DNA of 64,000 nt from Nostoc cf. commune SO-36 (GTDB taxonomy: Bacteria; Cyanobacteriota; Cyanobacteriia; Cyanobacteriales; Nostocaceae), in the NCBI RefSeq assembly GCF_023734775.1, contig NZ_AP025732.1:2672501-2736500 (forward strand), in the 5' to 3' direction. Numbering within the stretch: position 1 is the stretch's first letter; each line of letters opens with the position of its first letter. This document shows positions 58,251 to 60,329 of this stretch, one piece after another. Position numbers and translations under genes: made by a program. The notes under the pieces are model-generated. The model worked only from the letters and a program-made list of their open reading frames with translations. It had not been told where the DNA came from and made no database searches.

Positions 58251-60329
58251 GTGGCACGCACGATCCCGCTAGAGAAAGTACGCAACATCGGCATCATGGC
58301 GCACATCGATGCCGGCAAGACGACGACGACCGAGCGCATCCTCTATTACACCGGCAAGTCCTACAAGATCGGCGAAGTGCACGAAGGCACCGCCACGATG
58401 GACTGGATGGAGCAGGAACAGGAGCGCGGCATCACGATCACGTCGGCCGCGACGACCTGCTTCTGGAACGACCACCGGATCAACATCATCGACACGCCCG
58501 GCCACGTCGACTTCACGATCGAGGTCGAGCGTTCGCTGCGCGTGTTGGATGGCGTAATCGCAGTATTTTGTTCTGTGGGCGGCGTGCAACCGCAGTCCGA
58601 GACAGTGTGGCGGCAAGCAGAACGCTACAAAGTTCCTCGGATAGCCTTTATCAATAAGATGGATCGCACTGGAGCGAACTTTTATAAAGTTCACGACCAA
58701 ATTCGCGATCGCCTGCGTGCGAATGCGATCGCCATTCAACTACCAATTGGTAGTGAAAACGACTTCCGAGGTATCGTTGACCTAGTAGGGCAACGTGCGT
58801 ATATTTACGCTAATGACCAAGGAACTGATATTCAGGAAACTGATATCCCAGAAGAGTTGCAAGCGCAGGTAGATGAATTCCGTACCAAGCTCATAGAAGC
58901 TGCGGCAGAAACCGATGATGCTCTGATGGCTAAGTACTTCGAGGGCGAAGAACTTACAGAACAGGAAGTTCGGACTGCCCTACGTAAAGGGACAATTGCG
59001 GGGACAATTGTACCAGTACTTTGTGGTTCGGCATTCAAAAACAAAGGCGTGCAGTTGATGCTGGATGCCGTTGTAGATTACCTGCCAGCACCAAGTGAAG
59101 TACCGCCAATTCAAGGCTTACTGCCCAATGGCGATACTGTTGAGCGGCGTGCTGATGACAACGAACCCTTAGCAGCTCTGGCATTCAAGATTATGGCTGA
59201 CCCTTACGGTCGCCTGACATTTGTTCGCGTTTATTCTGGTGTCCTGAAGAAGGGCAGCTACGTTCTCAACGCTAGTAAGAATAAAAAAGAACGTATTTCC
59301 CGCTTAGTTCTCATGAAGGCAGACGATCGGCAAGATGTCGATGAACTGCGAGCGGGTGATTTAGGAGCAGCTCTGGGATTGAAAGACACCTTGACAGGTG
59401 ACACACTCTGTGATGATGGATCACCAGTAATTCTGGAATCCCTATTCATTCCTGAGCCTGTGATCTCGGTGGCGGTTGAACCCAAAACCAAGAACGACAT
59501 GGACAAACTGTCGAAGGCTCTGCAATCTCTCTCAGAAGAAGACCCTACCTTCCGTGTCCGCGTCGATCCGGAAACAAACCAGACCGTGATTGCGGGAATG
59601 GGAGAGCTACACCTAGAAATTCTAGTAGACCGGATGTTACGAGAATTCAAGGTGGAAGCGAATGTAGGTGCGCCACAAGTAGCTTACCGAGAAACAATTC
59701 GGAAAGCTGTGAACAAAGTTGAGGGCAAATTCATCCGCCAAAGTGGTGGTAAAGGTCAATATGGTCACGTTGTGATTAACTTGGAGCCTGGAGAACCCGG
59801 TACTGGCTTTGAATTTGTTTCCAAAATTGCTGGCGGTACAGTACCTAAAGAGTACGTTGGCCCCGCAGAACAAGGGATGAAAGAAAGCTGCGAATCCGGT
59901 GTTCTAGCTGGATATCCGTTGATTGACGTTAAAGCGACGTTAATTGATGGGTCATACCACGATGTAGACTCTTCAGAAATGGCTTTTAAAATCGCTGGCT
60001 CAATGGCGATGAAAGAGGCTGTGCTAAAAGCTTCACCTGTCATCTTAGAGCCTATGATGAAAGTTGAAGTTGAAGTTCCTGAAGACTATATGGGGAACGT
60101 CATTGGCGACCTCAACACCCGGCGAGGGCAGATTGAAAGCCAAAGCACCGAAAAGGGACTCGCTAAGGTAACATCTAAAGTTCCACTGGCGAGTATGTTT
60201 GGCTACGCCACTGATATTCGGTCAAAAACGCAAGGTCGGGGTACCTTCACGATGGAGTTCAGCCACTACGAAGAGGTGCCTCGCAGCGTAGCTGAAACTA
60301 TCATTGCAAAAAGCAAAGGGAACGCTTAG
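58251..60329 (+). CDS. fusA: Elongation factor G, with a foreign-looking 5' segment
   Basis: The 692-residue EF-G starts at GTG 58251, with AGGAGGT 5 bases upstream. It has [14 protein letters not shown] (G1, about 17-30), IDTPGHVDF (about 84), INKMD (about 138), and the C-terminal domains IV-V ([23 protein letters not shown]). It translocates tRNA and mRNA on the ribosome. Residues from about 13 to 97 are encoded by GC-rich DNA and carry alphaproteobacterial signatures ([21 protein letters not shown]), whereas from [17 protein letters not shown] on the protein is cyanobacterial. The frame is open, but this chimera is suspicious. Confidence 0.9.
58285..58545 (+). other. Foreign-like GC-rich tract in fusA
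   Basis: The line 58441-58500 has 39 G or C of 60, against 28 of 60 at 59221-59280 in the same gene. Codon third positions are almost all G or C within the tract and mixed outside it. No HIP1 site lies in the tract. Borders are approximate, judged from codon use and protein signature. Confidence 0.8.

Follow-up and report, generated by a model that had tools for sequence, protein, structure and literature searches.

The window analysed in this study, 64,000 nucleotides of Nostoc cf. commune SO-36 (C1:2672501-2736500), contains a series of genes that we take to be rps12, rps7, fusA and tuf, based on the open reading frames. Both fusA (EF-G) and tuf (EF-Tu) contain an internal tract that resembles alphaproteobacterial sequences, and comparable tracts were identified elsewhere in the genome in gyrA and in one ftsH gene, with two short foreign clusters in a second ftsH (Table 1). 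The assembly has a size of 7.41 Mb in five contigs, with a completeness of 99.98% and a contamination of 0.55%.

Table 1. Chimeric genes and tracts. Coordinates with a prefix refer to contig C1 or to a locus (L); all others refer to the window.
Feature	Coordinates	Strand	Length	Basis or remark
fusA (EF-G), chimeric	58251..60329	+	692 aa ORF	GTG start at 58251
Sphingomonas-like tract in fusA	58292..58536	+		first-to-last base private to this genome; composition span 58281-58547
tuf (EF-Tu), chimeric	60353..61582	+	409 aa ORF	
Caulobacterales-like tract in tuf	60495..60755	+		private bases; composition span 60492-60760
Brevundimonas-like tract in gyrA	C1:622382-622700 (L204:2382-2700)		319 nt	scan and private bases
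Alphaproteobacterial-like tract in ftsH (ftsH-1)	C1:3083471-3083807 (L227:6971-7307)		337 nt	scan and private bases
Second ftsH, two short foreign clusters	C1:2405320-2405445 (L156:12820-12945; L156 = C1:2392501-2412500)			private bases

The tracts in fusA and tuf

The fusA gene is the sole close copy in the genome (self match 100%, next best match 35%), and the locus is present in all 16 genomes of the same genus that were searched, each of which matches the full 650-base query from position 58251. The identity to these 16 congeners is 0.89-0.96 in the region upstream of the gene (57650-58250) and 0.95-1.00 in its first part (58251-58291), falls to 0.68-0.69 in the tract and returns to 0.87-0.97 in the remainder (58537-60329). 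Bases that are found in this genome and in none of the congeners compared (16 for fusA) are referred to as private, and their distribution follows the same pattern, with 5 of 601, 0 of 41, 68 of 245 and 10 of 1793 positions in the four segments, respectively. At 64 of the 68 private positions in the tract, the base is the same as in the majority of 10 proxies that belong to the same family as Sphingobium xanthum. Likewise, 17 of the 20 residue differences in EF-G compared to the nearest congener are located within residues 16-96, while the protein outside the tract, with the three other differences, is nearly identical to the EF-G of the congeners.

These results agree well with the original prediction of a GC-rich tract in one open frame at positions 58285-58545, followed by a cyanobacterial remainder of fusA. 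The predicted borders are located at most 10 nt from the diagnostic ones, and the frame is open from end to end across the tract. The suggested shift in GC content, from 39 to 28 of 60 bases, was measured as 34-40 G or C per 60-base line in lines 58240-58540 versus 28-30 in lines 58600-58720, with a renewed rise in tuf.

The sphingomonad-like origin suggested for the EF-G segment was borne out mainly by the protein comparison. Residues 8-102 show 98-99% identity to sphingomonad-type EF-G among the best 120 of 8,000 scored proteins, of which, after the window's own protein, the named ones are either from Sphingomonas, Sandaracinobacter, Rhizorhabdus, Sphingosinicella and other sphingomonads or assigned no further than to alphaproteobacteria or Proteobacteria. 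At the DNA level, the tract reaches at most 93% identity among 385 genomes across the class of a Bradyrhizobium, and a close match was found among 397 genomes from the family of Sphingobium xanthum (maximum 95%, or 96.3% over the diagnostic span). Actinobacterial loci reach up to 89.8% DNA identity among the first 80 loci listed, so that a DNA identity of about 90% is by itself no proof of an alphaproteobacterial source, and it is the protein matches that name the donor. The fusA gene of Sphingobium xanthum (L075) is 21 nt longer inside the tract region, and therefore some sphingomonads do not fit as donor type.

A second such tract next to the first had also been suggested, and it was indeed recovered in tuf. 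Compared to six congeners, 55 of 261 bases are private in this tract, versus 0 of 142 before it (60353-60494) and 4 of 745 after it. The tract protein is 98-100% identical to the 120 matches listed, among which the names are mainly Brevundimonas, Phenylobacterium, Caulobacter, Hyphomonadaceae and their kin, with stray labels such as Roseibacterium, Thiobacillus, Comamonadaceae and Dongiaceae. No sphingomonad is named among these 120 matches, and the second tract is thus Caulobacterales-like rather than of the same type as the first. The best DNA match is 90% (Bradyrhizobium), and the donor is less sure than those of fusA and gyrA because named tuf DNA from Brevundimonas is absent from the comparison set.

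Two simple scenarios were rejected. A transfer of the whole fusA gene is ruled out by its congener-like remainder, and a single transfer of an operon stretch by the sequence between the two tracts, which matches the congeners, as well as by the differing donors.

Other tracts in the genome

We scanned 2.144 Mb of the genome (29%, including 5,000 N) with 5-mer Markov models, in which an alphaproteobacterial model trained on 23 loci around alphaproteobacterial fusA and tuf genes was compared to the genome's own model. Because of this training, the scan is biased toward such genes and toward high GC, and tracts from companions with a low GC content would escape. The 5,000 bases read as N are located at C1:4457501-4462500, at the end of L235 and the start of L236.

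The four highest scores were obtained for ftsH (102), fusA (89), tuf (87) and gyrA (75), while the next of the 13 stretches listed scored 31. All four strong tracts in the scanned part are located in conserved genes, as expected from a consensus artefact, which would affect only stretches where DNA similarity across phyla is high, and a widespread foreign signal was not seen there. Four of the nine weaker stretches were inspected. By eye, those in L249 and L160:19503 represent amino-acid repeats in native-looking proteins, the one in L250 is located in a histidine-kinase-like frame, and the one in L156 corresponds to the second ftsH gene.

In gyrA, 87 of 319 bases in the tract are private in the comparison with six congeners, versus 9 of the 600 bases that follow. 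Other proteins reach at most 96% identity to the tract protein; those with a name are mostly from Brevundimonas, with stray labels such as Mycolicibacterium and Roseibacterium. The tract DNA matched two of the 385 alphaproteobacterial genomes (88-89%, E-values up to 1e-60).

The tract in ftsH-1 contains 69 private bases out of 337 (six congeners), and its best DNA match is 90% (Bradyrhizobium). It is one base longer than in all six congeners and the frame ends early, with 367 codons from stop to stop; by eye, the site of the frameshift resembles a blend of alphaproteobacterial and native spellings. The second ftsH gene has no long tract, but two short clusters at positions 12825-12847 and 12891-12945 of L156 with native-like sequence between them. 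Parts of the clusters are letter-identical to the ftsH-1 tract. In total, 19 private bases were counted in the 126 nt that span the clusters versus 16 in the surrounding 1075 nt. At 14 of these 19 sites, the base agrees with that of most of the 11 proxies from alphaproteobacteria, as compared to only one of the 10 private bases covered by the proxies in the surroundings. Recombination would explain patches of about 20-55 nt less readily than a column-wise consensus in which foreign reads had been aligned locally.

The tract in fusA is absent from all 16 congeners, and those in tuf, ftsH and gyrA from all six congeners examined for each gene. The protein matches of the fusA (sphingomonad-type), gyrA (Brevundimonas) and tuf (Caulobacterales-type) tracts indicate at least two donor lineages. 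A donor with 99-100% DNA identity was not found for any of the four tracts among the sequences compared, the best matches being 96.3, 90.2, 90.2 and 88.5%.

Tract borders and local alignments

We compared the tract borders to the limits of local alignments between alphaproteobacterial loci and one congener locus per gene, using mapper-like scores (match 1, mismatch -2, gap 2/1). The alignment ends were projected on this genome, which was used for coordinates only. In ftsH-1, all 11 proxies produced one alignment each, which ended at most 4 nt from the right border in nine cases and at most 24 nt from the left border in eight. In fusA, the alignment started at most 6 nt from the left border for three of six proxies and inside the tract for the other three; it ended at most 18 nt from the right border for three of six proxies and continued to position 58681 for the others. 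The right border of the tuf tract was matched within 7 nt by four of eight proxies and the left border within 4 nt by two, with four starting 50 nt inside, and two of the eight proxies gave no alignment over the tract. In gyrA, the alignment extends across the whole tract for only one of four proxies, which is distantly related; one of the two nearest proxies aligns over L204:2383-2483 only and the other not at all.

With the tract itself as donor, close ends were obtained for tuf (6/6), for both ends of ftsH (6/8) and for most of gyrA, while the left end in fusA was reproduced by none of five proxies. Other scorings in this version gave stretches that were far shorter or far longer. Shorter alignable stretches, such as 61494-61563 in tuf, were not overwritten. 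The borders thus coincide in part with the limits of local alignment: strongly for ftsH, partially for fusA and tuf, and weakly for gyrA.

At a distance of up to 30 nt from the eight borders, proxy and congener share exact runs with maximum lengths of 5-11 nt, and in one case 17 nt. In this comparison, proxies take the place of the true donor and congeners that of the native copy, and the actual donors may have longer runs in common with it. The identity between donor and native sequences at the tracts is 60-82% in 60-nt bins.

Origin of the tracts

It is highly probable that the fusA tract is a consensus artefact derived from companion bacteria and not cyanobacterial DNA. The original prediction had also placed an artefact before a transfer, and this ranking is strengthened by the tracts in gyrA and ftsH, the frameshift in ftsH-1, the clusters in the second ftsH, the presence of at least two donors and the partly matching borders. 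We infer that the Nostoc culture held alphaproteobacteria, including at least one Sphingomonas-like and one Brevundimonas-like bacterium, the reads of which would have aligned locally during consensus building or polishing wherever the Nostoc DNA is sufficiently alike. Such stretches would be the G domains of EF-G and EF-Tu, the AAA core of FtsH and the N-terminal part of GyrA. If the foreign reads outnumbered the Nostoc reads in these conserved stretches, the consensus would have been overwritten, and as overwriting would be limited to the aligned part, each tract would end about where the alignment ends. Blends or frameshifts inside the tracts are seen in ftsH-1 and in the clusters of the second ftsH, and none in fusA, tuf and gyrA. 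As a counterpoint, neither the frame nor the length is altered in the latter three tracts, which would also be the outcome of real conversions.

The accessible part of PMC6202449 describes Brevundimonas as regularly present in ULC cyanobacterial cultures, and its introduction states that 52% of the public cyanobacterial genomes contain foreign sequence; Sphingomonas is not mentioned in that part, and none of four companion terms occurs in the accessible part of PMC5422444. A search for rRNA with RF02541 gave no match in the genome, and since the control matched only 10 of 14 named genomes, this search is uninformative.

Real gene conversion, by which short pieces of DNA from companion alphaproteobacteria replaced the corresponding segments of fusA, tuf, gyrA and ftsH, is unlikely. 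In its favour, the replacements in fusA, tuf and gyrA preserve the register and leave the reading frames open, and Brevundimonas may plausibly live alongside cyanobacteria, as indicated by PMC6202449. However, at least two donor lineages and at least four events across phyla would be needed at the low identities given above, one of which would break an ftsH gene, and the clusters in the second ftsH are merely about 20-55 nt long. For strand exchange, the ends should be exactly identical over about 20 nt or more, and the runs near the borders appear to be shorter than this as far as the proxies tell. The absence of all tracts from the congeners examined also argues against conversion. The broader claim that this Nostoc repeatedly took up short companion DNA and converted pieces of its core genes for translation and topoisomerase across phyla, with near-zero identity at the ends and with working chimeric EF-G, EF-Tu and GyrA proteins, is quite improbable.

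Alternatively, a companion read or contig may have been incorporated by an assembly join or during gap filling, and not by overwriting after assembly. Such a graph error rests on the same premise of a mixed culture, and the tracts in fusA and tuf are similar in length, about that of one short read. Assembly k-mers are usually 21 or more, which exceeds the exact runs at the borders, although true donors may share longer ones. Two clusters in the second ftsH do not correspond to a single join, and the tracts in fusA, tuf and gyrA, together with the sequence adjoining them, have the same length as in the congeners. We regard this explanation as very improbable. Finally, native drift or codon-usage selection at a highly expressed gene can be dismissed almost with certainty. 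Highly expressed genes elsewhere do have GC-rich codons in their conserved domains, but the match of the EF-G segment and its private bases to sphingomonads and the clustering of the residue differences in a tract found in none of the 16 congeners both speak against it.

If the tracts are a consensus artefact, they resemble the contamination from non-axenic cultures described in the accessible part of PMC6202449 in that the source is heterotrophic proteobacteria, including Brevundimonas, in cyanobacterial cultures. They differ in that PMC6202449, in that part, concerns foreign sequences or bins, whereas here diagnostic spans of 245, 261, 319 and 337 nt are embedded in native genes, and the chromosome is nearly complete. 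As in mosaic genes that result from intragenic recombination, such as aph(3')-IIa (PMC4437187) and penA (PMC10926701), a foreign segment is located in a homologous gene. Those mosaics, as the two papers describe them in brief, involve either genes for resistance or an exchange between members of one genus, while the donors here are from another phylum, with several donor lineages, a low identity at the tracts and one frameshifted tract. None of the papers found, judged by their titles and the start of their abstracts, describes tract-sized overwriting of conserved genes.

Screens for contamination at the level of contigs would probably miss such intragenic tracts. Should our interpretation be right, a near-complete reference genome carries companion sequence in widely used markers, namely the genes for EF-G, EF-Tu, GyrA and FtsH, and trees, scans for transfer and calls of resistance sites that are based on these genes would be misled. 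The combination of a tract with deviating composition, a border at the limit of alignment and several donors would offer an inexpensive way to look for this fault in other genomes. The tract in gyrA presumably includes the part of the gene in which sites for quinolone resistance are usually called, and resistance calls from the assembly may therefore not describe Nostoc in this region. We also observed that a GyrA protein labelled Mycolicibacterium poriferae (P0183), from a 5-kb contig, is 95% identical to the Brevundimonas-like tract, which is possibly another case of contamination.
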